The position numbers and the translations under genes are program-made. This document shows positions 28,664 to 57,449 of a DNA stretch of 64,000 bases, in pieces (within the stretch, counting starts at the first letter, position 1; the number at the start of each line of letters is the position of its first letter). The notes below the pieces were generated by a model. It made no database searches, was not told where the DNA came from, and saw only the letters and a list, made by a program, of their open reading frames with translations. Source of the stretch: Planctomycetia bacterium (GTDB lineage Bacteria; Planctomycetota; Planctomycetia; Pirellulales; Thermoguttaceae). The stretch spans positions 64,929 to 128,928 of the forward strand of contig JAUNMR010000006.1 in the NCBI GenBank assembly GCA_030537455.1. The letters run 5' to 3'.

Positions 28664-28980
28664 TCTCGATTTCTTGTCCCCTCCCCTTTCAAATGAGGAA
28701 CGACTCTCTACGCCATTGCCATAACGCTTAATGCAAGGCAAAACTGCTATTCACAAGAGCGGCGATATTTGTTATGAATCCCACGGAGGGTTACCTCTGA
28801 CAATCGCTCAACCTGGGCTACTAACGCCGCCGCGAAATCGACTCCTGTCGTAAGTCGTTATTGAGCGCGTTATGCCAGCGGAGTGTGATAACCTTTGCTT
28901 ATATCGCCGTCTTATCGGAGCGTCGAGCAACGACAGACGTCCAAATTGGTCGTCCTAACACAATTAAATCAGGGTTTAAT

Positions 28981-31374
28981 ATGAAACGTTCTGCGCTTCA
29001 ATGCGTCGTAGGTTTTGTCGGCGCGACGCTTATTATCGTCGGGGTCATTTGGACCTGTCGTCAATTGAGTTCTCCGACAGAACTCAACGCCGCCCAGGAC
29101 GCTACTATAGCGCGTAACGCCTCTGTATCGGGCGCGCCTCGACAGTCCTCGTCCGCGCCCATAACGTCTCGTGACGCAGATAGCGCTCGTCGCATTCGTT
29201 CCACATCGGCGACGAGCCAATTACGTTTATCACTTTTGGACGATCAAGACGCCAATAGCGCCTCCCAAGAGTCTAACGCCTCGCTCCGTTCCCCAGGTAA
29301 CGAAGGAACCTCCCTAGACCTCTACGCCCTCCCAGAAACAGGGGAGCCGAGCGCGCCCAGTAACGACCTCTCTTACGACTTCGATCAGGCGGCTCCGCTA
29401 GCGCCCTTGAACGAAGAAGCTGGTTTTCCTGAGATGGCGCCATTAGACTCCGCCCCGGCACAAGGGACAATTCTGCCCTTGACAGACGACGGCAACGCCG
29501 ACTATCCGCTCAATTCCCCCTCCCCTTTGGTCGTGAGCCAAGATGAATACGCCGAAGACTTTAACGTCGAGGAATATAACACGCCGAACGCCTTAGCACA
29601 GCAAGAGGATTTCCCCGCGGTAGAAGACGACTCGCCTTTGCCGTCAATTGAGCCGACGCCACTGGACGACCAAGCGTCCCCGCTGACGGAACCTGCTCCG
29701 CTACCTGGGCAAATCGTGGAACCCGAACCGACTCTTTTTACACAAGATAACGCCTACTTCGAACCGCTCCCTGAAAGCGTTGATACCCCCTCGCTACAAC
29801 CGATTCCACAATCGCAACCGCTCCAACCGGAGCGACAGGTTCCCCAAAGTCAACCCGTCGCAAACCAAGGGGTGACAGAAGCGATTCCAAGTAGTCGACC
29901 GACCGTCGAACGCACGACGTCCGCGTCAAATGCCACGACTAATGAATTTGCGCGATTCTTCAATACAATCGCCGCACAGGGTAATAGCGCTAATATCGAC
30001 GCGAACGAACTACTCGGCGCACAATCGACGCAAATCGTCGTAGAAAAGATCGCGCCGGAAGAGGTACAGGCTAACAAAGAAGCAGTTGTCGTCGTTAAGG
30101 TCAAGAACCTTGGCGCTCGTACGGTTCGTAATATTTTACTTTACGACCAAGTCCCCGAAGACGTGAGTTTTATCGCTAGCGAACCGGCGGTGACGCCTGG
30201 CGCGCGTGGCGAGCTTATTTGGGCGCCCTTTGACTTGGAAGCGCAACGCGAAAAGAAATTCGAATACCGTGTCGTTCCGACTCATGAAGGAGAGTTCGGA
30301 AGCGTCGCGACCGTCTTTATTGCCGCGTCCGCCTACAGTAAAACGAAATGTTCCAAACCGGAGCTTAAAATCGAGGTCAACGCGCCGGAACAGGCCGAAC
30401 TTGGTCAACCTGTTGACTTTACGATTGTCGTCTCCAATGTCGGCACCGGAGACGCCAGTAATGTCGCGCTCTTCGACGAAATACCCGAAGGACTTTATCA
30501 CCCCAACGGTTCGAGCCTGGATAATAAACTCGGAACGATTAAGGCTGGCGAGTCGAAACAATTATCGCTCACCTTACAATCGGTTGGCGCGGGAGTGTGT
30601 GTTAATCGCCTGATCGCCTCCGCCGACGATTGCGAAGAACAAGAGGTCGAAACTAGCGTTAAGATCCTGGCGCCTCAAATCGAACTGGGTATTAGCGGTC
30701 CGGAAAGTCTCTATCTGGAGCAACGTTCTGTTTACCGTTTGAATGTGAAAAACAGTGGCGACGCCACGGCGCGCAATATTCAGCTCGTCGTGCAACTACC
30801 TGAAAGCGTTGAGTTTATTAACGCCAACAACTACGGCGTTCATCGTGCGGAAGACCATTGCGTCTACTGGGATCTAGCGGAATTGCCGTCGCAATCGGAG
30901 GGTGAAATTGAACTGGCGATTAGCGCCAATAAACTCGATCGCACGGAATTAACCTTCCGCGGAACCGGTCCGAATAACTTATCGGTGGAAACCTCGCAAC
31001 GCTTGACAATCAATGGTTTGGCGGCGCTATCGTATAACGTAACGTCCTCCGCGGATCTCATCGAGACCGGCAAAGAGCTTGAATATACGATCCAAATCGT
31101 CAATAGAGGCACGAAGGAATCGACCAATGTGATCCTACAAGTTCTCGCGCCAGAAGCGTTAAATGTTCTGGCGACAGACGGTCCGACACAAGCGGTCAAA
31201 CGCGACGGCGTGGTCGTCTTCGATAAGATTCCAGAAATACCCGCGAAAACCACGGTCACATATAAAATCAAGGTCAATGCAGTTCAATCAGGAGATTGTC
31301 GCGTCGGCTTCCAGCTTAGCTCCGACGACCTTGAGCCACTGGGCAAAGAGGTCAATACGCGCGTCTATCAGTAA
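28981..31374 (+). CDS. Large DUF11-repeat exported protein
   Basis: 797 residues. An N-terminal hydrophobic segment (about 8-28, VVGFVGATLIIVGVIW) acts as signal anchor. A long Pro/Ser/Asp/Glu-rich region (about 35-320) follows. From about 345 come four DUF11/CARDB-like beta repeats: KIAPEEVQANKEAVVVVKV, then KIEVNAPEQAELGQPVDFT, LGISGPESLYLEQRSVY and LSYNVTSSADLIETGKELE. DUF11 repeats occur in large surface and cell-wall proteins, including the chlamydial cysteine-rich outer-membrane protein. A structural envelope role is likely. ATG 28981 is preferred over 28861, since only the shorter form starts with a normal basic-hydrophobic leader. Confidence 0.85.
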   Translation: MKRSALQCVVGFVGATLIIVGVIWTCRQLSSPTELNAAQDATIARNASVSGAPRQSSSAPITSRDADSARRIRSTSATSQLRLSLLDDQDANSASQESNASLRSPGNEGTSLDLYALPETGEPSAPSNDLSYDFDQAAPLAPLNEEAGFPEMAPLDSAPAQGTILPLTDDGNADYPLNSPSPLVVSQDEYAEDFNVEEYNTPNALAQQEDFPAVEDDSPLPSIEPTPLDDQASPLTEPAPLPGQIVEPEPTLFTQDNAYFEPLPESVDTPSLQPIPQSQPLQPERQVPQSQPVANQGVTEAIPSSRPTVERTTSASNATTNEFARFFNTIAAQGNSANIDANELLGAQSTQIVVEKIAPEEVQANKEAVVVVKVKNLGARTVRNILLYDQVPEDVSFIASEPAVTPGARGELIWAPFDLEAQREKKFEYRVVPTHEGEFGSVATVFIAASAYSKTKCSKPELKIEVNAPEQAELGQPVDFTIVVSNVGTGDASNVALFDEIPEGLYHPNGSSLDNKLGTIKAGESKQLSLTLQSVGAGVCVNRLIASADDCEEQEVETSVKILAPQIELGISGPESLYLEQRSVYRLNVKNSGDATARNIQLVVQLPESVEFINANNYGVHRAEDHCVYWDLAELPSQSEGEIELAISANKLDRTELTFRGTGPNNLSVETSQRLTINGLAALSYNVTSSADLIETGKELEYTIQIVNRGTKESTNVILQVLAPEALNVLATDGPTQAVKRDGVVVFDKIPEIPAKTTVTYKIKVNAVQSGDCRVGFQLSSDDLEPLGKEVNTRVYQ

Positions 31375-37058: not shown

Positions 37059-40000
37059 TTAATTCGAAGCGCCGCTGGCGGCAACCGGCAACTTCAACTT
37101 GGTGCCGACGTCAAAATACGTGGCGCCCGAGGGCAAGTTATTGAGCTTTTTAATCTCAATCCAACGCGACGTACTGCCGAGCTGTTGACCGGCAATCGTC
37201 AGAAGATTGTCCCCCTCTTTGGTGACATACTCGCGGTAATTTCCTGCCAAGCTCGTCGCTGGATTGACAGCGGAAGCCACGGTAGAACCGGCGACCGGCG
37301 CGGTATTGCCAACAGTCGAGGTTCTCGGGACGCTAGTCGTTGCGGTCGCTGGATTAGCAGTCGCAACGCTCGTGGCGCCGGTAGGAGTCGACGTCGTGTT
37401 CACGGCGGACGCCGCATAGGTCGACGCAGTCGGCGTGGCGGCTATGCGAGTATTGTTGGAATACTGCGCAAAGGGGGACATCGAGTAGGAGTTCTCCAAC
37501 GTCGGGGTTAACGCGCTCAAGTCGTTAGCCAGTTGACTATTAGCAACCGGCTGAGTCACATTCGACGCTGTGGACGTCGCTGGCGTCGGGTTCGCGGCAG
37601 AACCGCCGAGCAAACCGGACGACGGCGTTGTCGACGGCTGTGACGTCAACGTAGAGGTCGAAGGCGCGGCGGAACCGCTCAAGGGATTATTCGACGTCAG
37701 ACTATTAGCGGGGGACGTCGTGTACGTTGTGCTCGGCGTCGCTGAGGTCGTTGGCGTTCCAAGGGCTGGACTGGTAGAGTTCAACGTGGAAGGAGTCGAC
37801 GCAGAATCGTTTGCAAGGGACGTGGACGCCAGAGGTTCGCCAAGGGACGACGGCGCGCTATTGAGCGAATTAGTCGGCGTTGTCGTTGCGGGCGCGGCGT
37901 CCAGGGGGGAATCGTCGACGCCAGACGCGGCTGAGTTATTCCACGGATTAAGATTCGCCAAAGCCTCCTGACGTTCCTGAAGACCATTACGCAGGTTAGC
38001 GCCGGTATTCTGGAGGGATTCCAGAGTATTGTTGTACGCGTCGTTAACAGAATTCGCAACCTGGTCATAGCCATTTTGCAGGGTATTCAACGACTGGTTA
38101 AGTGAATTAGACGCGTTGTTTGCCATCTCGTCGAGACGTTCACCGGTCTGATCAAGCCAGTTCTGAGCGTTATCGACCTGAGAATCGAACGACTGCGCTA
38201 GGGAATCGACGCGATCTTGAACGCCGGTAGTAAAATCCTGTAGCGTGTCGTTGGCGCGCGTACTCCAAGAGTCAACTTGATCCGTCAGGCTTTCAACGGC
38301 GTCGTTGGCGCGCTGGTTAAAGCTATTCAGACCGTCGTTAACTTGCGTCGACAAGCGTTCCAGAGAATTAGCGCTTCGCGAGCTGAGATTCGCCGCTTGT
38401 TCGGACAAATCAGAAAGATTATCCGCATTGAGACGGTCGTCGAGAACACTGGCGCCGCTTAACTGATTTAAATCGGAACTTGCGGCAGAACCAAGGGACG
38501 CGTCGCCATAATCGCCAAGGGAATCCCCCAACGTCAACGTCATATCGTCGTTAGAGGCTGACGCTAATGGAGAAGCGGCGCTCGTCGATAAACCATTGGG
38601 CGTGGAAGCAAGGGAATTGTAGTTCGGTTCAGGTTCGTTCGCGAGCGTGGAGGAGTTGCCAAAGGAGTCCAAATCGTCGTCAAGGAGCGCCGAGGACGCG
38701 ACGGGAGCGCTTTCAGTCGAACCTAGAGACGTCGTGAGAGAATCGTTGCTGTTAGGCGAAGCGTTGGTCCAATCGCTGCCTCCCCAAGAGCCGGTCGTGT
38801 CGCCAGTTGAGGCGGCAGGAACGGTTTCCGGCTCATCGCCCCAATCGGCTCCGATCGCGCTAGACGCGGCGTCCTGGGCGACGACATTGGACTCAAGACC
38901 AGGGTCGTTCGAATCCGCGAGGGGTTCAACGAGAGATTGCGCGGTCGAATCCGCGAGCGGGTCGTCCGGGGAGGCAGAGCCGTCGACGAGCGCGTCGTTG
39001 GGATCGAGGAGCACGTTGGCGCTCGCGTCAGGGTCAATAAGCGCGTTAGAGTTTGGATCGTCGACCATTAGCGCAGTTGCGTCGTCCGTTAGGGTCTGCG
39101 TCAAATCGGCGGTCGTAGCGCCGTTTCTCACGGGGGTGGTACCGAACTCAAAATCGGGGTCGGCGGGATTAACGTCGGCGTCGGCGATAGAAGCAGGATC
39201 GTCGTCGGATCCTAGGGGATCGTCAACAAGCGGACTAGGCGTGGTCAAATCAACGCTCGGCGCGAGGGGCTCGGTCAACGGCGAATCGTCAGAGGCAAGC
39301 GGATCGTCGTCGAGTAGTTCAGAGGACGCGGCGTCATTCGGCGTGACGCCGCCGTAACCGTCGACATGCACCGGCATAGCGTCGTCGTTTACAAGTTGTC
39401 CAACGGCGTCATTCGCAGCGTCGGAATCAAGAAGATCGTCATTGACGGACGAGGTAAGATTATTATTGAGCGCTTCCAGCGGATTCGTGTACTGCGTGTC
39501 GATATCCTGGAGGTCTTCTTTAAGATTATCGAGTTGCGCAAGGGCGGAATCTGTGGCGTTGTTCAAGTCGGCGCTCAAATTTGTGGCGACGTTTTCATAG
39601 GCGTCGGAAATTTGCTCGTTGAGCGAGGCTATTTCATTACCGACGTCGGACGCTTTCTCACCTTTTTTGCCGAACCCTAACTTATTACCCAGGCGTTTGA
39701 AGAAACTGGGTTTTGACTCTTTGGTTTCCGTGACGTCCGTGTCGTCGACCTGAGCAAGAGTAGCGGTCTCTTCGTCGAGTGGCACAATGTTGTTATGTTT
39801 GCCAGAAACGACCATCTTGCCGACGTAAAGCGTCATCATTACGACAGTTGCAACAATCGTAACGACAATCGTTCTCTTGGCAAGACGCGCCCAATTACGA
39901 CCTTGTGGCTCATAGTCATAGTTTTCGTCGTCGTGCACTTCGTCCTCGACGTCGACGGAGCGTGAGCTGGAACGCGGAGAATCGTGGGAAGAATCGAACT

Positions 40001-41255
40001 CCTCGTCCTCGCCATACTCGTCGCTGTTTCTATTCCTACGTAAAGACGCCAAACGCTTGAAAGGGGCGGAACAGGCGGACGCTAAGTTCCGAGAAAGCGC
40101 GGTCATTGCGCTACCGAGCGCGGCGACGTTAAACAATTTTTTCGACGTTGAACCGGGCGCAAGTTCTTCCAGTTGCGCTTCCAGTTCTTCCAATTGAGCG
40201 CGCGCGCGTTCGACGTCCTCGCGGAAGTCGTCGGCGTCGCCATTCTTTTCTGCGTCCTTAAGGAGCGCCAAACCGTCTTCATATTCCTTACGCGCTTTTT
40301 CGATTCTTTCCTCAAGATCCTGGATGAGGAGCTGGCGTTCTTCCTCTTCCTCATCAATTGGCTCCTCGGAGGCATTTACCTCCTCAAGCTCCTCCTGAGG
40401 CGTTTCGTCCTTACGTTTGCCGAAACGACCGAAAAGACCACGGCGAGAGCCCTTCTCGCTGTCATCCTGCTCATTGATTTCGAAGGCGTCGTGGTCAACC
40501 TCAGGCTCGGCGGAGCCGGCGGGGCTTTTCGTAGAACTGCTGCGCGTAGGTACGGAAGCAGGCATAATGATCGACGGCTTAGCGCGTTCCTCTTGTGGAG
40601 TCACAGTCGGCTTAACCTGGCGAAACATTGAGACGTTCGGGTGGGAGGAATCTTTGGGCGAGGACGCGTTTGACGCGCTGGGCGCAATCGGCGTAGGAGT
40701 AACAGTCGCCGGTTTTAACGTCGCGCTGGGACGCATCGACGCCAAGGGCGAAGGCTGGGAGGAGACAGAAGAAGTAGACTGTTCACGAAAGACGTCGGGA
40801 TTCACCATGGGATCGGAAGAAGACGGCGTCGCATGACGAACAGTAGCGCCCCTGGGCGTGAAATGACTGGAATAGCCAGTACTAACCGAACCGCCCTGAC
40901 CTTGCGTTGGGGCGACGGTATTGCGACTCAAGGGCGTGGAGGAGACCTGAGGAGAAGACTTGACAGCGTCGTGGCGATCGTCGACGTCCTCTTCGTCGTC
41001 ATCGTCGTCATCGGAATAATCGGAGTATTCGTCGTCTTCGTCTTCGTCATATGAGTCGTCATAGCTATTATAACCGTCATAGCCATAGAACGAGTCGTCG
41101 TCATACTGGTCGCGTCGAGAACGATCTTTTTTGCGACGCGAATCTTTACGCGAGTAGCTATCTTCCTCCTCGTCGGCGTCGTAGATACGCGCTTCCTCGA
41201 AGTCGTCTTCCCCTAGATAACCTTTGTTACGCTTACCTTTATTCTTTTTTCCCAT
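37059..41255 (-). CDS. Giant single-pass envelope protein with C-terminal LysM domain
   Basis: 1398 residues, not a recognised named protein. The order is a Lys-rich start; an Asp/Glu/Tyr/Ser-rich acidic region (about 15-95); a Ser/Pro/Thr linker; a coiled coil (about 295-365, ERIEKARKEYEDGLALLKD); one membrane helix (about 458-480, TIVVTIVATVVMMTLYVG). Then come ~450 residues of Asp/Ser/Asn/Ala low complexity; a helical repeat stretch (about 945-1100, units such as VNDGLNSFNQRANDAVESL); a Thr/Ser/Ala/Pro stalk; and a LysM domain at about 1342-1390 (YVTKEGDNLLTIAGQQLG). The N-terminus is probably cytoplasmic and LysM reaches peptidoglycan. It starts 18 bases after rsmH, where dcw clusters usually carry ftsL, so a division or envelope-tethering role is possible. 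Confidence 0.85.
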   Translation of the reverse strand: MGKKNKGKRNKGYLGEDDFEEARIYDADEEEDSYSRKDSRRKKDRSRRDQYDDDSFYGYDGYNSYDDSYDEDEDDEYSDYSDDDDDDEEDVDDRHDAVKSSPQVSSTPLSRNTVAPTQGQGGSVSTGYSSHFTPRGATVRHATPSSSDPMVNPDVFREQSTSSVSSQPSPLASMRPSATLKPATVTPTPIAPSASNASSPKDSSHPNVSMFRQVKPTVTPQEERAKPSIIMPASVPTRSSSTKSPAGSAEPEVDHDAFEINEQDDSEKGSRRGLFGRFGKRKDETPQEELEEVNASEEPIDEEEEERQLLIQDLEERIEKARKEYEDGLALLKDAEKNGDADDFREDVERARAQLEELEAQLEELAPGSTSKKLFNVAALGSAMTALSRNLASACSAPFKRLASLRRNRNSDEYGEDEEFDSSHDSPRSSSRSVDVEDEVHDDENYDYEPQGRNWARLAKRTIVVTIVATVVMMTLYVGKMVVSGKHNNIVPLDEETATLAQVDDTDVTETKESKPSFFKRLGNKLGFGKKGEKASDVGNEIASLNEQISDAYENVATNLSADLNNATDSALAQLDNLKEDLQDIDTQYTNPLEALNNNLTSSVNDDLLDSDAANDAVGQLVNDDAMPVHVDGYGGVTPNDAASSELLDDDPLASDDSPLTEPLAPSVDLTTPSPLVDDPLGSDDDPASIADADVNPADPDFEFGTTPVRNGATTADLTQTLTDDATALMVDDPNSNALIDPDASANVLLDPNDALVDGSASPDDPLADSTAQSLVEPLADSNDPGLESNVVAQDAASSAIGADWGDEPETVPAASTGDTTGSWGGSDWTNASPNSNDSLTTSLGSTESAPVASSALLDDDLDSFGNSSTLANEPEPNYNSLASTPNGLSTSAASPLASASNDDMTLTLGDSLGDYGDASLGSAASSDLNQLSGASVLDDRLNADNLSDLSEQAANLSSRSANSLERLSTQVNDGLNSFNQRANDAVESLTDQVDSWSTRANDTLQDFTTGVQDRVDSLAQSFDSQVDNAQNWLDQTGERLDEMANNASNSLNQSLNTLQNGYDQVANSVNDAYNNTLESLQNTGANLRNGLQERQEALANLNPWNNSAASGVDDSPLDAAPATTTPTNSLNSAPSSLGEPLASTSLANDSASTPSTLNSTSPALGTPTTSATPSTTYTTSPANSLTSNNPLSGSAAPSTSTLTSQPSTTPSSGLLGGSAANPTPATSTASNVTQPVANSQLANDLSALTPTLENSYSMSPFAQYSNNTRIAATPTASTYAASAVNTTSTPTGATSVATANPATATTSVPRTSTVGNTAPVAGSTVASAVNPATSLAGNYREYVTKEGDNLLTIAGQQLGSTSRWIEIKKLNNLPSGATYFDVGTKLKLPVAASGASN

Positions 41256-41273
41256 GTTATGCGTCTCCCGATC

Positions 41274-42185
41274 TTATGACTTTTGCAATTCAGCGATGCG
41301 CAGTTTAGCGCTTCTCGATCGCGGATTATTCATAATTTCTTCTTCCGAAGCGACAATTGGTTTTTTTGTCACTACGTTTAAATTCCAATTCTCACGAAAG
41401 GCGTTTTTAACAATTCTGTCCTCGAGGGAGTGAAAGCTAATAATGGCGATACGTCCTCCAGGATTCAAGTAATCAACACACCTTTCGAGGAACGACTCAA
41501 GGGAGCCTAGCTCATCGTTTACAGCGATTCTTAACGCCTGAAAAGTTCTCGTAGCGGGGTCAATTCTGTTTTTTACCCACGGCGGAGTAGGATCGCACCG
41601 TCGGCAAATTTCGGCGAGTTCAGAAGCCATACGAATCGGTTTCTCTTGGCGTCTTTCGACGATCGCGCGAGCAATGCGTCGGCTGTAACGTTCCTCGCCG
41701 TAGCGAAAGATGACGTCGGCTATTTTCTCTTGTTTCCAGCGATTTAATAGGACGTAAGCGGGCTCGCCCTCGGTCACGTCGAAACGCAAGTCAAGTTCGC
41801 CGTCGGAGTCAAAACTGAAACCGCGAGAACGGTCGGCAAGCTGGTCGCTCGACAGTCCTAGGTCGAGCACAAAACCGTCGACCTTCTGGACGCCGGCGCG
41901 TTCCAAGGCCGCGTCGAAGTTACGGTAATTTGCAAAGTAAGTCTGAATGCACAATTCCTCATGCAACTGCTCTACGCGCTGGTCGACACGGTCGAGCGCG
42001 GCGCTATCGCAATCTAGCGCGATCACCTTACCGGTCGGTCCAACCGCGCGAGCGATACCGATAGCGTGACCTCCGCCGCCGAGAGTGCCGTCCACGATTA
42101 TCTTACCGGGCGATAGATTTAAGCCTTGCAACGTTTCATTGTAAAGTACTGAAACATGAACCGTTGGGGTAATATCGCTTGCCAT
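41274..42185 (-). CDS. rsmH: 16S rRNA m4C1402 methyltransferase RsmH (MraW)
   Basis: 303 residues, the normal size. N4-methylates C1402 in the decoding centre of 16S rRNA using AdoMet. Motif I IIVDGTLGGGGHAIGIA lies near residue 28, DGFVLDLGLSSDQLAD near 100, and the C-terminal GGRIAIISFHSLEDRIVK block near 250. The start is ATG 42185, giving MASDITPTVHVSVL, a typical opening; ATG 42203 would add six residues. In most bacteria rsmH heads the dcw division cluster after mraZ. Here mraZ, ftsL, ftsI and mur genes are missing, and the giant LysM gene follows at once, fitting the rearranged dcw clusters known from planctomycetes. Confidence 0.97.
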   Translation of the reverse strand: MASDITPTVHVSVLYNETLQGLNLSPGKIIVDGTLGGGGHAIGIARAVGPTGKVIALDCDSAALDRVDQRVEQLHEELCIQTYFANYRNFDAALERAGVQKVDGFVLDLGLSSDQLADRSRGFSFDSDGELDLRFDVTEGEPAYVLLNRWKQEKIADVIFRYGEERYSRRIARAIVERRQEKPIRMASELAEICRRCDPTPPWVKNRIDPATRTFQALRIAVNDELGSLESFLERCVDYLNPGGRIAIISFHSLEDRIVKNAFRENWNLNVVTKKPIVASEEEIMNNPRSRSAKLRIAELQKS

Positions 42186-42287
42186 AGTACACGCTTGAAA
42201 CAAGGTTGCACAACGTCACATAAAGTCGACGGCGACGACGCGACGGTCGAACGTACGCTACGTTAAACGCACTCGCCTCTGTTCGCT

Positions 42288-42316
42288 ATTATACGTATAG
42301 TTTCTATATTTGAAAA
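42288..42316 (-). promoter_or_regulatory. Promoter of rsmH and the LysM gene
   Basis: Minus strand TTTTCA, exactly 17 bases, TATAAT, giving a leader of about 96 bases before rsmH. The same -35 hexamer and consensus -10 appear upstream of aas and efpL. Confidence 0.65.
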
Positions 42317-42537: not shown

Positions 42538-43332
42538 CTAAGCAAACCAGGACGCGAGGCTCTCGAGCGTTTGTAGCGCGCCGTCCTGAAAGACGCGAAG
42601 ACACACGCCTAGTAATGTCGTAAGAACCCCAAGCGTTAAGAGCGCGTTGAGATTCAGGCTCGACGCCATGAGATTGATTTGAGGCGCAATGCGACCCAGA
42701 CAACCGATGGCAAAATAAACGATCAAAGAGGCGACTAAAACCGTTGCGCTGAGTTTTAACGCAAGAGCAAAAGACGAGGTTAAAAGCGCGCAAAGTTGGG
42801 GCGCTAGATCGAATGCAGCGTACGACGCGCCGACTTCAACGCGCTCACAAACCGTTAGAAAACTGTCAAGCAAAATTTCCAGACCGCCAAAAGCGGCAAA
42901 GAGCGCAAGCGCCGTCCAAAAGAGCAAACGCGACACAGGCGTGGCGTCGGAACCGAGCGTCTCGTCAAAAACCCCGGCCACGGCTATTCCGCCTACGCGC
43001 GCTATCAATTCACCTGCTAAAAAAAGCGCGCCAAAGACGATCTTGACGACAAAACTAACGAGCGCCCCAAAGGTAAATTCAACCGCGGCGTCAAGAGCAA
43101 ACGCTAGTAAAGTCGAAAGACCTAGAGGGAGCGATTCAACTGAAAGAGCAGTAGCAGGCGCGCAAGCGAGCGCCTGTGGGTAGAGCAAAAGCGCCAATAA
43201 GACGGAAAAAACCACACGCGTTGAACGGTTCAGCTCGATCTGCTCCACACCTGGAGCGAAGCGAATCATACCAAAACAACGCGCGGTTAATAGAAGAAAG
43301 AGGCGAATATAGGGAAAGATCAAGGTTTCCAT
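42538..43332 (-). CDS. fliR: Flagellar/type III export apparatus protein FliR (SctT-like)
   Basis: 264 residues with about six hydrophobic helices. FliR forms part of the export gate of flagellar and type III secretion systems in the inner membrane. Family signs are the N-terminal RLFLLLTARCFGMIRFAP, the ALVSFVVKIVFGALFLAGELIARVGG helix region, DSFLTV near 160 and the ending IGCLGRIAPQINLMASSLN. Length matches FliR (~260). No other export or flagellar gene is in the window; in most genomes fliR sits between fliQ and flhB. It begins 70 bases after the HtrA-like gene on the same strand and could be cotranscribed with it. Confidence 0.85.
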   Translation of the reverse strand: METLIFPYIRLFLLLTARCFGMIRFAPGVEQIELNRSTRVVFSVLLALLLYPQALACAPATALSVESLPLGLSTLLAFALDAAVEFTFGALVSFVVKIVFGALFLAGELIARVGGIAVAGVFDETLGSDATPVSRLLFWTALALFAAFGGLEILLDSFLTVCERVEVGASYAAFDLAPQLCALLTSSFALALKLSATVLVASLIVYFAIGCLGRIAPQINLMASSLNLNALLTLGVLTTLLGVCLRVFQDGALQTLESLASWFA

Positions 43333-47437: not shown

Positions 47438-48973
47438 ATGGCGTCCAAAACAAAAGAACCCAACGAGCAAAACGGCACAAGTAAACCTCTTAACGTTCTG
47501 GTTGTCGACGACGAGCCCGCTCATGCGGAAGTTGTCGCCGCGAGCTTGGAACGTATCAACGCCGTGTGTGTCGTGGCGTATTCTGAGAAAGAAGCGCTGG
47601 AATTAATCAAGCGTCGTTTCTTCGACGTGGTCGTAAGCGACCTCATGCTCGAAACCAACGAGAGCGGTCTTCAGATTCTCAAAACCACCAAGCGAGAGTC
47701 GCCCGACACCGAAGTCGTGCTCATGACCGCCTCCAGCGGCGTAGAGACCGCCGTGGAGGCTATGCTCGAAGGCGCGTTTAATTACCTGCAAAAGCCCCTA
47801 GACTTAAAGCAATTACGCTCCATCGTTCAAAAGGCGGGCGACGCTTCCAAACTGCGGCAAGACAATCAGCAACTCAAAGCGCGCTTGGATGAAAAATTCG
47901 GCTTCGACGGCGTGATCGGCAGTAGCGAAGCAATGCTCAAAGCAATAGAACGCCTCAAACGGATCGCCCCGACAGACGCGGCCGTACTCATTCTCGGCGA
48001 CACGGGCACCGGTAAGGAACTATTCGCACAGGCGTTACATCACAATAGCCCGAGAAAGAGCAAGCCGTTTGTAGCGCTCAACTGTGCCGCGCTCAGTGAG
48101 AATCTACTGGAAAGCGAACTTTTCGGTCACGTCAAAGGCGCTTTCACTGACGCGACGAGCGACCGTGTCGGAAAATTTGAATATGCTGACGGCGGTACGA
48201 TCTTTCTAGACGAAGTCGGCGATATGCCGCTATCGACACAAGTCAAGCTACTTCGTACCTTAGAGAGTCACGAGATCATGCCGGTCGGTTCGAACAAAGT
48301 CATAAAGGTGAACGTACGCTTGGTCTCCGCCACGAACCGCAATCTAGAAGACGCCGTGGAACAGGGAACTTTCCGTCGCGACCTCTACCACCGTCTAAAG
48401 GTTGTCACCTTACGCCTTCCGAGTTTGGTCGAACGTCGTACTGACGTCCCGATTCTCCTGGATCACTTCATGAAAATCTTCGCCAAGAAGTACAACAAGA
48501 CCATCAAAGGCGTCTCAACGATCGCGCGACGTAAACTGCTTGCGTACGACTGGCCCGGAAACGTAAGACAGCTGAGAAACTTCGCCGAGAGTATGGTCGT
48601 GGTCGATATTGACGGGTTTATCGACGCCGACGATCTGCCAGAAGAAATCATTGACTTGGAACCGGGCGATTTGACGCCTGAAGAACAAGAACAAGAGCAA
48701 GAGGAAAGCGTTGGCGTGGTCACTAACGCGACGTCTGCCAAGAGCGCCCCGGTACTAGTGCCGTCCTCGCCGGAACAGGAACGTTCGCTCAAACCCTTCG
48801 TGGGAATGTCGCTCGACGCTTTGGAAAGACTCTTTATACAGGAAACGTTGCGTGCAACCGGTGGCAATCGTGAAGAAACCGCCAGAATTTTAGGAGTTGG
48901 CGAAAGAACGCTCTATCGTCGTATCAAACAATTTTCCGAAGAGAACGACAGAAATGTCCAACACGACCAGTAG
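47438..48973 (+). CDS. NtrC-type response regulator with altered GAFTGA loop
   Basis: 511 residues. The receiver domain (about 15-130) has [10 protein letters not shown] and the phosphoacceptor Asp68 in VVVSDLML. The AAA+ domain (about 150-390) has Walker A GDTGTGKE near 187, [12 protein letters not shown] (Walker B) near 250 and the RRDLYHRL arginine-finger region. The sigma-54-contact loop at 234-239 reads GAFTDA, not GAFTGA. A Glu/Gln-rich linker and a Fis-type helix-turn-helix (about 465-500, [21 protein letters not shown]) complete it. It should be an activator of sigma-54 promoters controlled by an unseen histidine kinase. CGGAGA lies 8 bases before the ATG. The SET gene overlaps its last 20 bases. 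Confidence 0.95.
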
Positions 48974-49472
48974 AGATTCCCAGAACACGCAGGACAAGAC
49001 TCGCGCGCTCTCGCCCTATTCCAGCCGCACGCGACGACGGTTCGATCGCGTGGTTGTTCAAGAGACGTCCACGCGTGGTCGTGGCGTCTTTGCGACGTCG
49101 AACGTCAAAGCGCGCTATGCAATTGGTCGCGTCTTCGGCGACGTCTACCCCCAGGGCTATCGTTCACGATACTGCGTCGAATTCGGCGACGGCGCGCTTG
49201 AACCGTACGAACCGTACCGGTTTTTGAATCATTCCTGCGATCCGAATTGCGAATTTGTCGAGTGGTCGATTCAAATTGAGGGGCAAATCGTACAAGAGTT
49301 ATGGCTCCACGCTCTGCGTGACGTCAAACCCGGCGAGGAGTTAACTATCGATTATGCCTGGGATTGGCAAGACGCAATTCCCTGCCTTTGCGGCTCCCCG
49401 CAATGCCGAGGTTGGATTTGTAAAGAGGACGAACTAGCGCTCTGTATAGAAAATAATCGGAAAGAACGCTGA
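48954..49472 (+). CDS. SET-domain protein methyltransferase
   Basis: 172 residues. The SET core starts at about 32 (STRGRGVFATSNVKA), with the AdoMet/knot motif RFLNHSCDPNCEF near 94 and GEELTIDYAWDW near 130. It is followed by a post-SET-like CLCGSPQCRGW (C-x-C-x4-C near 147), which with the knot Cys would bind zinc. SET enzymes methylate lysine in proteins; bacterial examples exist in chlamydiae and planctomycetes, some acting on histone-like or ribosomal proteins. The start is ATG 48954, inside the upstream gene, so the two are translationally coupled; the longer frame from 48897 lies wholly in the regulator. The substrate is unknown. Confidence 0.9.
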   Translation: MSNTTSRDSQNTQDKTRALSPYSSRTRRRFDRVVVQETSTRGRGVFATSNVKARYAIGRVFGDVYPQGYRSRYCVEFGDGALEPYEPYRFLNHSCDPNCEFVEWSIQIEGQIVQELWLHALRDVKPGEELTIDYAWDWQDAIPCLCGSPQCRGWICKEDELALCIENNRKER

Positions 49473-49721: not shown

Positions 49722-50711
49722 ATGTCCCAAGAAGCGTCCTTATCGGAAGAAGTCGTTCGACGTAGTAGCGCTCAACTCGCCAAACTCCGAACGGAAATCG
49801 CTCGTGTCGTCGTTGGTCAGAACGCCATGGTGTCACGGTTACTAGTCGGCGTTTTGGCACGCGGTCACGTCTTGCTAGAAGGGGTTCCCGGTCTTGCCAA
49901 AACCACGGCGATTAAATCGCTCACAGCCGCGCTTGATGCGAAGTTTCAGCGCGTGCAATTCACACCCGACATTCTGCCCGCCGACCTCATTGGGACAATG
50001 ATCTATACCCCCAGTTCCGGGTCGTTCCAAACGCGTAAAGGTCCGATTTTCGCAAACTTCGTACTCGCTGACGAAATCAACCGCGCGCCCTCGAAGGTTC
50101 AATCCGCACTCTTGGAGGCTATGCAGGAACGTCAGGTGACCATTGGGGAAACGACTTGGCGTCTGCAAGAGCCGTTCCTCGTTCTAGCCACCCAGAACCC
50201 AATCGAGCAGGAAGGAACCTACCCCTTGCCGGAAGCTCAGGTCGACCGCTTTATGCTCAAAATCAAGCTTGACTATCCCTCTATGGAGGAGGAACAATTG
50301 ATTTTCGACCGCGGAATGGACAACTTTAGCGACCAACCTCAACCTGTCTTGACTACTGACGACGTTCTACAACTGCAAAAGGTTGTCGATCAAATCTACC
50401 TTGACCCGAGCGTGCGCGACTATATCGTTCATCTCACACGCGCAACCCGCTCGCCCGAACAATACCGACTGCCGGAATTCAACCGTTTTATCCAGTTCGG
50501 CGCCTCTCCTCGCGCGTCCCTATGTATCGGTAAAGGAGCTAAAGCTTTAGCGCTACTAGCTGGTCGTAATTACGTTACGCCACAGGACGTCAAAGATATC
50601 GCGCTCGACGCCATGCGACACCGCGTTGTGCTCACCTATGAGGCCGAAGCGGAAGAGATTAGCGCCGACGACGTTATTAAAAAGATCCTCGACGTCGTGC
50701 CTACGCCATAA
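49722..50711 (+). CDS. MoxR-family AAA+ ATPase
   Basis: 329 residues, the first gene of the Bat operon. MoxR ATPases act as chaperones that insert cofactors or assemble complexes with VWA proteins. Walker A GVPGLAKT lies near 52, Walker B LADEINRAP near 115, sensor 1 LATQNPIEQEG near 158 and the LPEAQVDRFML block near 172. The C-terminal lid domain is complete. AGGAA lies 7 bases upstream of the ATG. The next gene starts 40 bases after its stop and is the usual DUF58 partner. Confidence 0.96.
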   Translation: MSQEASLSEEVVRRSSAQLAKLRTEIARVVVGQNAMVSRLLVGVLARGHVLLEGVPGLAKTTAIKSLTAALDAKFQRVQFTPDILPADLIGTMIYTPSSGSFQTRKGPIFANFVLADEINRAPSKVQSALLEAMQERQVTIGETTWRLQEPFLVLATQNPIEQEGTYPLPEAQVDRFMLKIKLDYPSMEEEQLIFDRGMDNFSDQPQPVLTTDDVLQLQKVVDQIYLDPSVRDYIVHLTRATRSPEQYRLPEFNRFIQFGASPRASLCIGKGAKALALLAGRNYVTPQDVKDIALDAMRHRVVLTYEAEAEEISADDVIKKILDVVPTP

Positions 50712-50751
50712 GACTCCCGAGGCGCTAACCTCAGAAATCAAGGAGAATCAC

Positions 50752-51693
50752 ATGGCGGTTTTACGCAAACTATTCCACAAAAGAGCGCGCAAGTCGCAAC
50801 CGAACGTCGCACAGGGAGCGGAGCAAAATCTCGACAGTGCGCTCAAAAAACTCAAACGAATCGAAATCATCTCCAATCGCATTGCCAACGAGGTCTTTAG
50901 CGGTCAATACAAGAGCGCGATCCACGGTCAGGGGATTGAATTCGACGAAGTGCGCGAATACGCCGAGGGGGACGACGTGCGTTCCATCGACTGGAACGTT
51001 ACCGCGCGCGCCGGTAAACCATTTGTCAAACAATATTCCGAAGAGCGTGAGCGCACCGTCTTCTTCCTCCTCGACGTTTCCGCGTCTAACCTCTTCGGTT
51101 CGCGCCGTTCGCGTTTGGAGTTGGCGGCGGAAATTGTGGCGTCGCTACTCTTTTCCGCAATCAAGAACAATGACAAAGTCGGTCTGCTCGCCTTTGCAAA
51201 CGGTCCGTGTGAATACTACCCCCCGAGGAAGGGACGCAATTACGCTATGCGTCTGACGCGCGCTATCCTCACCGCACAGCCGCGATACGAACGTTCGAAC
51301 CTCAACGCCGCGCTGGAATATATCGACCGCACGCTCAAACGCCGCGCAGTGGTCTTTATCATAAGCGACTTCTACGTCGATGCGCTCGATCGCTCCCTGA
51401 TCCGTTGTCAGCAACGTCACGACGTCATCGCGCTATCGATTGCCGAGCCGGTGGAACGTAACTTTCTAAAGCTTGGATTCGTGAGCCTTTGTGATCCTGA
51501 AACCGGTCGTACGGTGGAGTTGGACACAAGTTCTGCGAGAGTGCGCGCCGCAATTGCCGAACGACTGGAAAATAAACGTAAAGCGATCGAAGCACGACTG
51601 CGAGAAGCGCGCGTCGATACGGTTTGGATCGACAGCGACGCCGATTACGCGCGTGTTCTACGCGACTTTTTCCACCTGCGCGCGCGACGCTAA
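50752..51693 (+). CDS. DUF58 (VWA-like) protein of the Bat operon
   Basis: 313 residues. DUF58 proteins are always near moxR and are thought to be its partner or substrate. The signature GIEFDEVREYAEGDDVRSID lies near 62, followed by a von Willebrand A-like fold: metal-site FLLDVSASNLFG near 108, VVFIISDFYV near 200. AAGGAG lies 7 bases before ATG 50752; the longer frame from 50626 runs inside moxR and is not used. Unlike BatA and BatB it has no membrane helix, so it is probably cytoplasmic. Confidence 0.93.
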   Translation: MAVLRKLFHKRARKSQPNVAQGAEQNLDSALKKLKRIEIISNRIANEVFSGQYKSAIHGQGIEFDEVREYAEGDDVRSIDWNVTARAGKPFVKQYSEERERTVFFLLDVSASNLFGSRRSRLELAAEIVASLLFSAIKNNDKVGLLAFANGPCEYYPPRKGRNYAMRLTRAILTAQPRYERSNLNAALEYIDRTLKRRAVVFIISDFYVDALDRSLIRCQQRHDVIALSIAEPVERNFLKLGFVSLCDPETGRTVELDTSSARVRAAIAERLENKRKAIEARLREARVDTVWIDSDADYARVLRDFFHLRARR

Positions 51694-51782
51694 CCTAATA
51701 ATTCCTTGAACCTTGCGTCGACTCGACGTACCAACTCATTCATTTTAGCACCATTCTTTTGTCACACGCTAGAGGAACACTC

Positions 51783-53069
51783 ATGACGACACGACTCGAG
51801 TCGCACAAATCCCTCCGCGGTTGTTCGATTCTAGCGACGCGCCTAATACTGCTGGTACTTTTACAACTCGTTGTGTGCGACTGCTACGCCAAGACAAACG
51901 CTAGTGGTTTCGAACCGCGAGAATACGAAACCGTTGACGTCAACGACTCAGAACACGGACAGTTGCGTCTCTTGCAAAAGAGTCAAGCTCTCCATGACGC
52001 GCTTGGCGTCTCCTATCAGCTTGAAATCGTCCTGGAAACGCCACGGGTCTTTCGACTTCTCCCTGACGAACTGACAGGTTCCTACGGCGACTATGACCTG
52101 CGTTTACAAAACAGCGACGTCGAAGATATTGACGAAACCAACGAACGCACTGTTCTGAGCTTTCTCCTGGTTCCTACCGTCGCCTTAGCGCCATCAGACG
52201 ATATCCACAAGACGGTGATCTTACCGGCGTTATCCTTCGGGTTTAAACTCAAGCCTGATGTGACAGACTCTGACGCCGACGCGCCGATTGTCCTAAAATC
52301 CAAACCGCTCCTGGGCGACTATAATGTCGTCGACCTCGACCCGCGCGATATCGCCGAGGTCAAACCTAACGTCTCGACTATTCGTACGTTACACGCTCTC
52401 CCCTGGGTTATTGTCGCGATATTGCTGGCGTTGTTCGCGCTTGCAATGCGTCTACGAAGAAATAAAAACGTCACAGAACAGTCGCAAGTCCAACCGCCAC
52501 AACAGCAGGAACCTCCTTATAACAAGGCGTTACGGCGTCTCAAGGAACTAGAAAGTTCTGCGTGCTATCAGCAGAACCAACGCGAATTCTACATCGAATT
52601 GGATCAAATTGTACGCTGTTACTTCGCCGAACAGGGGCAATTTAACGCGGAGGAGCTCACGACACAAGAGATTATGCGCCTGGTCGACGCTCAACCTTTG
52701 TCCCTTCTAGAATCGATTTGCCACGAGCACAACGCGCGTCTACTGGAGAATCGATCACAAGATTCAACGTCGCAAGAATTCCAGCGACCACCGTTAGACC
52801 TCTCGTCACAAGAGCACACGTGCGTCTTCCTCATGACGCTACAACAAGAGCAGTTGCGACGTGAAATCTATGCGACCCTACAAACGCTCGACCTCGTGAA
52901 GTTCGCACGACGCCACGCCTCGCATGAAGACGCTCAGCGACTACTCGCTTCCACTCGGCAGTCGATTAACCTTGTCGATACGTACTTTCACGCTAATTTA
53001 GACTCGCTCGAACAGCGCTGGAAAACACGACCACTGCCCTCGACAGTCGCCGTTTCCCCCACTAATTAA
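51783..53069 (+). CDS. Bat-operon membrane protein (DUF4381-like)
   Basis: 428 residues. A signal peptide (about 18-37, LILLVLLQLVVCDCYA) and a ~180-residue beta-rich periplasmic part come first. One membrane helix (about 212-232, LPWVIVAILLALFALAMRL) is followed by a cytoplasmic helical domain, with YNKALRRLKELESSACYQQ near 253 and EFYIELDQIVRCYF near 275. The helix-plus-cytoplasmic part resembles the DUF4381 proteins that occupy this place between DUF58 and BatA. GAGGAA lies 5 bases before ATG 51783; a TTG at 51759 is less likely. Its function is unknown, probably a scaffold of the Bat complex. Confidence 0.75.
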   Translation: MTTRLESHKSLRGCSILATRLILLVLLQLVVCDCYAKTNASGFEPREYETVDVNDSEHGQLRLLQKSQALHDALGVSYQLEIVLETPRVFRLLPDELTGSYGDYDLRLQNSDVEDIDETNERTVLSFLLVPTVALAPSDDIHKTVILPALSFGFKLKPDVTDSDADAPIVLKSKPLLGDYNVVDLDPRDIAEVKPNVSTIRTLHALPWVIVAILLALFALAMRLRRNKNVTEQSQVQPPQQQEPPYNKALRRLKELESSACYQQNQREFYIELDQIVRCYFAEQGQFNAEELTTQEIMRLVDAQPLSLLESICHEHNARLLENRSQDSTSQEFQRPPLDLSSQEHTCVFLMTLQQEQLRREIYATLQTLDLVKFARRHASHEDAQRLLASTRQSINLVDTYFHANLDSLEQRWKTRPLPSTVAVSPTN

Positions 53070-53148
53070 CCCCAAACCGACGCGATAACTGCACGCCTCT
53101 GCGGTGGCAAACGCTGTACGCAAGTCTCGTTTTTTATTAGTTTGCTTT

Positions 53149-54225
53149 ATGACAATCTTTCGTTTTGCCTGTCCATGGTTCCTTTTGCTCTTAGCGCCAC
53201 TGGCGTTAGCGGCTGTGAGAGCGTGGTTTAGACGAAAAACGCCCACGACTTATATGCTCTTCTCAACCACCGCGGAACTAGAGCAGATCCACCCAAGCGT
53301 CGCCATGCGTGTTAAACGTGCGCTTCCCTGCCTTTATTACGCCGGATTGATTTGCCTCATTCTCGCGTTGGCACGTCCACAATTCGGCTCCAGACGCACA
53401 CACGTCGTTGGCAATGGGATTTCAATCGTCATGTGCGTTGACCGTAGCGGTTCAATGGCGGCGCAGGATTTCTCAATCAACGGGATACCAGTCGATCGTC
53501 TGCAAGCGGTTAAAAAGACCTTTAGAGACTTCGTACAGGGTTCCAGTAAGTTTAAAGGACGTCCCAACGACCTCATTGCGCTAGTAACCTTTGGCGGGTT
53601 CGTTGACGCCTGCTGTCCGCTCACGCTCGATCATGATTCGCTGGTAGAACTGCTCGAGAAGATCGAAACGCCAAGACCACTGTATGACCGCAACGGCAAT
53701 GTCATCCATACCCAAATCATCGACGAGGAAGGCGGCACCGCAATTGGCGACGCGCTCGCTACCGGGGTCGATCTGCTCAAAGACTCGCCCAATAAAACCA
53801 AAGTCGTCGTCCTGCTTTCCGACGGCGTGCAAACCACAGGCGCGCTGGATTACATCGAAGGCATTAAGATAGCAAAGGCTTACGGCGTCAAGGTCTACGC
53901 CATTGGCGCAGGCTCTTCCGACCCAGCGCCCTTTCCCCACTATCTTCCCGACGGTGGCGTCGTTATGAGGCGCGCGGTTCTCGACTTCGATCCGGAAGCC
54001 TTACAAACGATCGCCGAAGCCACTGGTGGAAAATACTTTTATGCCGGCGACTCCAAAGCGCTCACGAGGGTATGTGAAGAAATTGACAACCTCGAACGCA
54101 CGAAGTTCACCGCCGGCGTCTACGCTGACTACGCCGATTCCTATCGACTGCTTCTGGCTATCGGCGCTACGCTACTGACGCTCTACGTGGCGCTCGCTAC
54201 TACGAGATTTCGATCCTTCCCGTAA
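53149..54225 (+). CDS. batA: BatA-like VWA membrane protein
   Basis: 358 residues. Two N-terminal membrane helices (about 6-24 and 58-76), a VWA domain (about 85-320) and a C-terminal helix (about 335-352). The metal-ion-dependent adhesion site is complete: DRSGSM near 101, the Thr in EEGGTAIGDAL near 200 and the Asp in LSDGVQTTG near 225. Bat (Bacteroides aerotolerance) proteins are tied to oxidative stress or envelope function, but their biochemical action is not known. ATG 53149 starts right before the first helix; a GTG at 53104 would add 15 residues. Confidence 0.92.
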   Translation: MTIFRFACPWFLLLLAPLALAAVRAWFRRKTPTTYMLFSTTAELEQIHPSVAMRVKRALPCLYYAGLICLILALARPQFGSRRTHVVGNGISIVMCVDRSGSMAAQDFSINGIPVDRLQAVKKTFRDFVQGSSKFKGRPNDLIALVTFGGFVDACCPLTLDHDSLVELLEKIETPRPLYDRNGNVIHTQIIDEEGGTAIGDALATGVDLLKDSPNKTKVVVLLSDGVQTTGALDYIEGIKIAKAYGVKVYAIGAGSSDPAPFPHYLPDGGVVMRRAVLDFDPEALQTIAEATGGKYFYAGDSKALTRVCEEIDNLERTKFTAGVYADYADSYRLLLAIGATLLTLYVALATTRFRSFP

Positions 54226-54289
54226 AAGAAGCGGTTCCATTGGTTCATTCGCCAGACGTCTTCCTCACTTGTAAGAGTACGTTCGTACC

Positions 54290-57200
54290 ATGTATTGGAA
54301 TTTCCCCTATGTTCTCATACTTCTCCCACTCGTTCCCGTGGCGTTCCTTCTTGCGCGCGCATACGCTAAACGCCAGATTAAACGAGTGCATGAGACGTTT
54401 TCCCACGAGATTACCACGCGACTGTTCCAGACTCGATCACAATATTGTGCGCGACTAAAAGGCGCTTGCCTATTGCTCGGGGTCTGCGCGGTGATACTCG
54501 CATTAGCGGAACCCCATTTCGGCGCGACTGAAAACGAAACGCAGTCTTACGGTCGCGACGTCTTTGTCCTCTTTGACGTCTCGGACTCTATGCTCGCGGA
54601 AGATATGCCGCCCAATCGTCTTGCCATTGCAAAACTTGACGTGGAAGATCTCCTCGACGTCATGCGTGGCGACCGCGTCGGTCTGATCGCCTTTGCCGGC
54701 TCCGCACAGGTAGAAGTCCCGCTTACCACCGATTACAACTTCTTCCGTGACATTCTGCGCAACGTCGACACATCCACAGTGTGCATGGGCGGCACCGCGA
54801 TTGGCGACGCGATCCGCCTGGCATTAGCACGCTTCGGTCAAGAGGAAACGCGTCAACGCGCCATTATCCTGATCACCGACGGAGAAGACCACGACTCCAT
54901 GCCTACTGCCGCCGCAGAATCCGCTGCGCAACTCAACGTTCCCATTTACGCCATCGCCCTAGGCTCCTCACAAGGAGCCAAAATTCCGGTCTTTGACGTT
55001 GCCGGAAATAAAACCGGCTACAAAGTTTACGACGGTCATGAGGCGCTCTCAATGCCTGACGTGGAGACGCTCAAACAAATCGCCAAAATTACAAACGGGC
55101 GCTTCTATAACGCAACTGCCAACTTAGACCTCGCACGTGTCTATGCCACGAGCGTCGAAACGCTCGAACGTTCACAAATCGCCTCTGCCTCGCATATCGT
55201 CCTCAAGAACCAATACCAAATTTGCCTCGCATTGGCTATTGTCGCGTTTGCGCTCTATTATTTTTTGCCCGTTCGATTCTCTAAAGGAATAAACGACAAT
55301 ACTTTGAACAAGGTTCACTACGTGTCGACACGCTCGATCCTATTACTAACGCTAATAATTTCCCTTAGCGCGCCTTACCGCCCGTCGTTGGTTTGCGCGG
55401 CGCAAGGTTCCGACGCTCAGGCGACGCCAGTCAAGCGCGTTCTATCCAAAAAAGAGGAAATCCAACGCCTTAACGACGCCAACGCTCTACTGGCTCAGGG
55501 GAACGTTGAAGAAGCAACCGTCGCGCTGGAAGAGTTGAGTGAGGCAAAAACGCCGAGCGTTGCCGCACGCGCCCAATATAACCTGGCGTACCTCGCCCTT
55601 TTACAATCTCAAAACAAACTTGAGACATTGCGCGAACAAAAGGAGGAGGAGGAACCGTCACAACAAACACAGAGCTCTGTCGAAGGTCAGGAACAAGCGC
55701 CGCTTGGTTCCAACCCTGAGAACCTTGTAAATGATTACAACGTCCAACGTTCCAAACGCGACGCCTCGCGTCGCGACGCTTATCAAGACGCACAACGCGC
55801 GCTCGCACTATACAACGACGCGGCAAAGTATCGCGCCTATACAAAGGACGCGCGACAGAACATTAGCGACGTCTTCGCTTGGATTCAAAAGGAACAAGTA
55901 AATGAAAACGCCAGGGAACTTGATCTGCGCGCTCAGGCGCTCAGTGACCCGCAAACGCGTTTAACGTGGCTACAACAGGAGACGTCGAATTTGATTGACG
56001 ACGTCTTAACTGCGCGTAATCAACCTTTCAAGACCTCTTTACTCAAGCGCATGCCCGAGGAAGCTAAGTCGATTCAAGACTGGTCCGTCGACTTCAACGC
56101 CATCGCCGAAAATCTCCTCGCCCAAGTCGCGCAGAGCGCCACAATTCCTCCCGTGCCAGGGCTTAATCTAAACCAAGAGTCCAATTCGCCTGACCAGACC
56201 GAGCTAACGTACCTTACAGATACGTTTACACGCGCGCAGTCGCAATTCCAAGACGCAGTCCAGAGCGCGTCGACGTCCTTCGTCCAATTTGACGACACAG
56301 GAGTTTTTTCACTCCTGAACGCGCAAAACCAGTTGCTAACCCTACGTGAGGCTACCGCGCCTTACGACGCCTTGGTTATACAAGCCGCTCAGCAAGAAAA
56401 AGAGCTCCTCGACCAAACGCTTAATAGCGAGTCCTTTCTGGAGGCAGACCAGACGCAAATCATTAAATACCACTGGAATCGTCGAGCTTTTAAAGAGTTC
56501 GTCGCGATCATGACGCACAAAGCGCAAACGATCCAAGACACCACGCCTGAGGATCCAGAAAACTCTACTCACGCCGAAGACAATCTGGAATCGTTTGAGG
56601 AACAAACGCCGACACAAGAGGACGACCCAGACGCCATTGAGTTTGACCCCGATTACAATGAACTCAGTGGGAATAACGGCGTTCCTTCTCCACAAGAAAA
56701 AGTCCGCGCTTCTGCCAAGTTAGCGCTTCAGTATTCCGAAGAACTTAACGCGCTAACCGACGAATTAATTGAACTTACTCATGAATATCAGCCTTCGGCG
56801 AAAATCGCGCAAGAAGGGGCAAATCGGCAAGCGCGAATCAATCAGATTATGCAGGAGATTATCGAACCGTTACTGGACGACCAGCAAAACCAGAATCAGA
56901 ACTCTGATTCCAACAGTCGGCAAAATCAATCCGATAATTCCCAGCAGGATCAGGATAACTCCCAAGACTCTCCAAACGATTCTCCGCAGTCTAGAGAGAA
57001 TCAGGACCAACAGAGCGATTCCAACAAACAAGACGACCAGTCACAGGACGACTCCGACGCGTCTGAATCGAATCCAGACGACGTTCCCGAGAACCTAGAG
57101 GAACCGCCTAAGGAGCAGGGGGAGGAACAGGAAGATGACAAACCGGAACAAGAGCAGGCAAATCAGCGCGATACCGTCGACGCGACCACGCGCGAGAAAA

Positions 57201-57355: not shown

Positions 57356-57449
57356 CGATCCTTCTACGCCGTCGCGTGATCGTCATCCTTTTAATCCGTC
57401 CGTTACTCATCGTTCCCACACGAACGCATATCATTTTTGTAGGTCAAGT

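Follow-up and report, generated by a model that had tools for sequence, protein, structure and literature searches.

A LysM membrane protein gene beside rsmH in planctomycetes is distinct from ftsL and is a candidate membrane-wall tether

INTRODUCTION

It is still an open question how planctomycetes manage division in the absence of FtsZ. Several planctomycete orders are reported to have lost most of their peptidoglycan synthesis genes as well (PMC12283558). When dcw genes were followed across the PVC superphylum, only murB, mraW, and ftsK were found to be kept throughout (PMC12283558). In the 64,000-nucleotide stretch of planctomycete DNA analyzed here (the window), mraW (rsmH) is followed by the gene for a very large membrane protein, which an earlier note had placed in the ftsL position as a peptidoglycan-binding candidate part of an FtsZ-free division or envelope machine. 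The locus therefore raises the question of what this gene is: an ftsL in disguise, a chance neighbor of rsmH, or a further member of the dcw cluster.

RESULTS AND DISCUSSION

The gene pair and its surroundings

The gene and its immediate upstream neighborhood are laid out as follows.

37059..41255 (-): LysM membrane protein gene, 1398 aa; open reading frame from ATG, with orthologues downstream of rsmH
41265..41269 (-): Shine-Dalgarno-like GGGAG in the 18-nt gap, upstream of the LysM-gene ATG, read directly from the sequence
41274..42203 (-): rsmH (mraW), 16S rRNA methyltransferase (Pfam Methyltransf_5, E 1e-94)
42288..42316 (-): promoter-like site TTTTCA-17-TATAAT upstream of rsmH, from a consensus scan alone that returned near the number of sites expected by chance

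The frame comprises 1398 codons from its ATG and lies 18 nt downstream of the rsmH stop, as the earlier note had it. rsmH is present as a single copy in this genome, and an internal ATG at 42185 may be its true start. It is possible that the promoter-like site drives the rsmH-LysM pair.

Several other genes in the window deserve mention in their own right. Just upstream of rsmH, 42538-43332 (-) encodes a FliR/SctT-type export protein (Bac_export_1, E 2e-34), and no other export-apparatus genes were identified among its scanned neighbors. The 837-aa protein encoded at 28861-31374 (+) has three DUF11 repeats and only 8 cysteines in the translated frame, and matches Chlamydia cysteine-rich outer membrane protein 6 (E 1e-11). 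A Bat-like operon of codirectional MoxR ATPase, VWA-domain, and BatD genes (49722-59438, +) is preceded directly by a SET-domain protein gene (48897-49472), and 19497-23150 (+) encodes a 1,217-aa protein in which MFS transporter, acyltransferase, and AMP-binding domains are fused, similar to a lysophospholipid repair protein of the LplT-Aas type.

Architecture of the window protein

The protein can be divided, from its N terminus to its C terminus, into the following regions.

39870..41255 (-): residues 1-462, a basic start followed by an acidic low-complexity cytoplasmic region (23% D/E), assigned from composition
40164..40352 (-): residues ~302-364, candidate short cytoplasmic coiled coil, from a DUF4349-like helical match under the cut-off
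39810..39869 (-): residues 463-482, the sole transmembrane helix, with RNWARLAKRT just before it, from hydropathy
37941..38438 (-): residues 940-1105, amphipathic helix with almost no proline and an 11-residue repeat, from autocorrelation against shuffles
37083..37241 (-): residues 1339-1391, C-terminal LysM domain (family profile E 1.8e-24; Pfam 18.1 bits)

The single membrane helix that had been predicted was thus found, at about residues 463-482, and is the counterpart of the KIGL motif plus transmembrane helix of relatives. The presence of the LysM and the charge distribution suggest that the LysM lies outside the cell membrane. Much of the protein's length is low-complexity, with an identity there of only ~30% to the homologue in the same genus (~33% within the genus for residues 1-462). 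The predicted periplasmic arm is long and of low charge, and its helix at residues ~940-1105 shows an 11/22-residue hydrophobic periodicity of 0.58, versus at most 0.21 in shuffled sequences, a feature common to the window copy and those at loci L048, L044, and L071. Residues 940-1105 also gave a weak Pfam Apolipoprotein match, and an apolipoprotein-like membrane-binding helix was considered and set aside as the less likely reading, the match being below the cut-off and traced to the 11-residue periodicity; the net acidic composition of the helix tends to favor a coiled-coil rod. Of the helical regions that the earlier note had described on both sides of the membrane, the periplasmic one stands on strong periodicity, and the cytoplasmic one, for which the evidence is a sub-cut-off match, is reduced to a candidate.

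The LysM domain is diverged. A full-length Pfam scan reports none, and the last 58 residues scanned alone score 18.1 bits against PF01476, versus a cut-off of 20.9; in orthologues the Pfam scores reach 84 bits. The domain nevertheless aligns end to end with the clear LysMs of relatives, and a family LysM profile, which matches solved LysM structures, retrieves the window copy with an E value of 1.8e-24 (the window sequence being among the 12 rows of the profile). The terminal LysM claimed earlier is therefore present though diverged, and by sequence signature (PF01476) the protein can be classed as a LysM domain protein. In the comparison with the same-genus homologue, the LysM is 74% identical (pN 0.17, pS 0.61, dN/dS about 0.16), RsmH 72%, and the rest of the LysM protein about 31-33%; judged by these values, the LysM is the most constrained part of the protein. 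Such a domain would be expected to bind peptidoglycan, its remnants, or another GlcNAc polymer. A single-sequence structure model of the window LysM had a pLDDT of 49 and was left unused.

The LysM gene is linked to rsmH across the class

The earlier note had named a random neighborhood in relatives as grounds against its proposal. We examined 40 rsmH loci from the window's family, a few of which are cut by contig ends; the dcw genes of one distant rsmH locus, the only locus returned by a related-protein search of genome contigs, served as BLAST queries. A membrane-LysM protein is encoded downstream of rsmH at 30 of the 40 loci, although at two of these (L039 and L047) its gene begins ~2 kb past rsmH. 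By the LysM profile, and with the window included, 31 of the 37 assessable family genomes carry the LysM gene after rsmH. In an equal-offset control, the next downstream gene was homologous in 285 of 666 locus pairs (43%), versus 0-7% of pairs at offsets -4 to -1 and +2 to +4, where gene order is scrambled. This control rules out chance adjacency. Six family genomes have the LysM gene away from rsmH (G024, G050, G019, G042, G047, and G018), so that gene loss is mostly ruled out as the explanation for missing adjacency within the family. Two further genomes, G048 and G035, have neither a LysM gene nor an rsmH match, and because rsmH is missing too, this probably reflects an assembly gap.

Counting one entry per genome, some of them single-contig assemblies, we found the LysM gene downstream of rsmH in 63 of 78 genomes from the class, and these 63 cover ten of the eleven family codes. 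The main exception is family f2, in which adjacency is seen in three of nine genomes and missing in six. Elsewhere in the phylum, families f44, f49, f55, f61, and f65 use this slot too, and f29 and f33 do so more loosely; a further set of families has a LysM gene in the ftsW-murG or the murG-murC interval. Loci with a membrane-LysM gene in the ftsW-murG slot are L102, L112, L127, L137, L157, L161, and L173; these genes represent either the same gene relocated or a parallel recruitment. A single dcw cluster, at L114 (G087), contains three LysM genes: one follows ftsW, and the other two lie in the rsmH-ftsI interval. Loci with the LysM gene next to rsmH group strongly together in an rsmH tree, and since the deep branches are weakly supported we do not claim a single origin. 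The rsmH-LysM order is class-wide, and the order rsmH-LysM-ftsL-ftsI occurs in several families, extending at L091 into murE-murF-mraY-ftsW-murG. The position of the LysM gene within the dcw cluster is thus conserved between genera and between families.

The LysM protein is not FtsL

Two observations might suggest that the LysM protein is these bacteria's FtsL, a LysM-extended divisome protein encoded in the ftsL slot: FtsL is likewise bitopic and encoded between rsmH and ftsI, where the LysM gene also lies, and short forms of the LysM protein consist of one membrane helix with a short N-terminal tail. However, in ftsI-containing clusters the order is rsmH, the LysM gene, a gene for a 78- to 141-aa single-helix protein, and then ftsI. 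An FtsL profile built from 61 small proteins, all from clusters without the LysM gene, matched 15 of the 15 small proteins of the LysM clusters (E 2e-12 to 2e-5), with a profile-profile probability of 97%; one member of the small-protein group also had a weak DivIC match. The LysM proteins gave no match to the FtsL profile. They thus lack FtsL/DivIC homology as well as a place directly upstream of ftsI, and the genuine ftsL-like gene coexists with theirs in each of these 15 callable clusters. The "ftsL position" of the earlier note accordingly has to be given up, because an ftsL-like gene separates the LysM gene from ftsI in each sampled callable intact cluster. As this separate gene intervenes, the LysM protein is neither FtsL nor an FtsL replacement; synteny and the profile search rule out the latter, and we regard identity with FtsL as highly improbable. 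Near the window's LysM gene, a search for an FtsL-like gene and ftsI found neither. The dcw cluster thus gained an additional gene, the LysM gene, inserted before ftsL; in the window's lineage it stayed by rsmH after ftsL and ftsI were lost.

A short ancestral form and lineage-specific giants

In short orthologues of ~270-550 aa, an (R/K)E(A/T)KIGL tail leads into a membrane helix and a Pro-rich linker, followed in most cases by two LysMs, and the orthologues of intact clusters show two clear Pfam LysMs. The short form is ancestral and the window copy a lineage-specific giant, in which LysM1 is absent and the N-terminal region and arm are very large. All 13 of the 13 forms of at least 700 aa are found in PBP-less genomes, and 12 of the 12 PBP-positive genomes have short forms (Fisher p 0.002), with lengths resting on uncurated start codons; the association is suggestive only, because there are about three independent origins of long forms. 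For the same reason, growth in length caused by PBP loss was set aside as phylogenetically unproven. Giant forms also occur outside the family of the window: at L212, in the PBP-less genome G259 from a different family, rsmH is followed by a gene for a 1,717-aa LysM protein.

Loss of wall synthesis and division genes

Scans of the window's genome returned no match to PF00091 (FtsZ), which bears out the absence of FtsZ assumed earlier, nor to PF01098 (FtsW/RodA) or the PF00905 transpeptidase (PBP). Two Mur-ligase matches were found, one resembling MurE. With an assembly completeness of 90.7%, any one absence carries limited weight, although the pattern recurs across the genus: two sampled congeners give the same PBP and Mur-ligase picture. 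PF00905 is present in only 20 of 69 genomes of the class sample, and the rsmH-LysM pair is kept in 40 of 54 tallied genomes without a PBP transpeptidase. Peptidoglycan genes have been lost in Pirellulales, Isosphaerales, and Gemmatales (PMC12283558), and the PBP losses seen here agree with that report under our inferred assignment of genome codes to these orders. A normal ftsL/ftsI cluster elsewhere, the other outcome that the earlier note had named as counting against it, was not seen, since the genome has no PBP and no ftsI and there is no FtsL-like gene near the locus. With the rsmH-LysM order kept in relatives, neither observation that could have overturned the original proposal was made.

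A ligand for the LysM may exist despite these gene losses, because both R. baltica and G. obscuriglobus have been reported to contain peptidoglycan sugars and DAP (PMC4432640). The window's genome encodes a second LysM protein of 573 aa (L032:301-2022, +, contig C7), in which Pfam sees only LysM; its C terminus appears L,D-transpeptidase-like by eye, without the usual catalytic motif.

A probable tether between membrane and wall

We think it probable that the LysM protein crosses the inner membrane once and grips wall glycan with its periplasmic C-terminal LysM, so tying membrane to wall, and the best reading of this tether is as an inheritance from the dcw cluster. The single helix would anchor the protein in the inner membrane, the LysM would hold peptidoglycan, its remnants, or some other GlcNAc polymer, and the link would act at sites of growth or division. 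In intact clusters the LysM protein would be coproduced with FtsL and FtsI, and the natural guess from this is a role where wall is built or remodeled; by association, a role in division is plausible. In the lineage of the window, the first LysM would have been lost and the acidic cytoplasmic tail and 11-repeat periplasmic arm gained, and the enlarged protein is consistent with either a reach-spanning tether or a scaffold recruiting cytoplasmic partners. The tether reading is backed by the family genomes without the pair, most of which keep the LysM gene elsewhere. It is weakened because the window's genome has no PBPs or SEDS proteins and only two Mur-ligase matches, and so may offer no canonical peptidoglycan to bind; because the LysM has drifted under the Pfam cut-off and LysM1 is gone; and because adjacency is missing in six of nine f2 genomes and Planctopirus limnophila can do without dcw genes such as ftsI, ftsW, and both copies of mraW (PMC10632474, PMC6952346).

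Retention of the gene where ftsL, ftsI, and ftsW are lost, and its persistence unlinked from rsmH in several genomes, would also be expected of a general envelope anchor or a passenger of the old dcw operon. Such a protein would link membrane and wall all over the cell, would play no particular part in division, and would stay by rsmH because the bicistronic unit provides its promoter; in keeping with this, the sole promoter-like site just ahead of the pair precedes rsmH. Against it stands the recurrence, in several families, of a codirectional slot just before ftsL-ftsI, a placement that points to some connection with the synthesis of septal or polar wall, and we consider the passenger explanation possible but on balance unlikely.

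Among known systems, Kbp/YgaU of E. coli (NF008399) has a LysM of the same kind: the family profile matches solved Kbp, and among NCBIfam models the short orthologues match NF008399 best, with scores below the equivalog cut-off. Unlike the LysM gene here, Kbp/YgaU is not dcw-linked, and we know of no membrane helix described for Kbp. NlpD-type division proteins combine a LysM with an M23 peptidase, and chlamydial nlpD lies in the dcw region. They thus share with the protein studied here the trait of a LysM protein among dcw genes in a related phylum. The window protein differs in having a membrane helix and a different slot and in lacking an M23 (LytM) domain, for which neither it nor the scanned orthologues had a Pfam match.

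For the long form, the best functional analogy may be HubP/FimV, in which a LysM outside, one membrane helix, and a long acidic cytoplasmic region are likewise combined (PMC12918733). In a polar or bud-site scaffold of this type, the LysM would fix a site on the wall and the acidic region would recruit partners. These shared parts are set against a reversed domain order (LysM C-terminal and cytoplasmic part N-terminal), a different gene neighborhood, and the absence, by Pfam and NCBIfam, of a C-terminal FimV/TPR domain with an N-terminal LysM; moreover, short forms have no cytoplasmic part, so that only the long forms would be explained. A HubP/FimV-like scaffold is therefore improbable.

CONCLUSIONS

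The conserved linkage to rsmH is the result of interest here. Among the papers available to us, we found none linking LysM to rsmH or dcw genes in planctomycetes, and a dcw-cluster membrane protein that probably binds the wall, still encoded beside mraW, is missing from the gene list of PMC12283558. More speculatively, and in our view rather doubtfully, the tether could be a core envelope or division component that has outlived peptidoglycan synthesis, the giant form being a scaffold part of FtsZ-free division. It would then hold a noncanonical wall, either PBP-independent residual peptidoglycan or another GlcNAc polymer, in those planctomycete lineages that lack PBPs, SEDS polymerases, and a complete set of Mur ligases. 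The LysM gene offers a concrete target for deletion and localization in a tractable strain, and its LysM could serve to probe any wall glycan that is left, giving a good new lead on envelope integrity and division in these bacteria.
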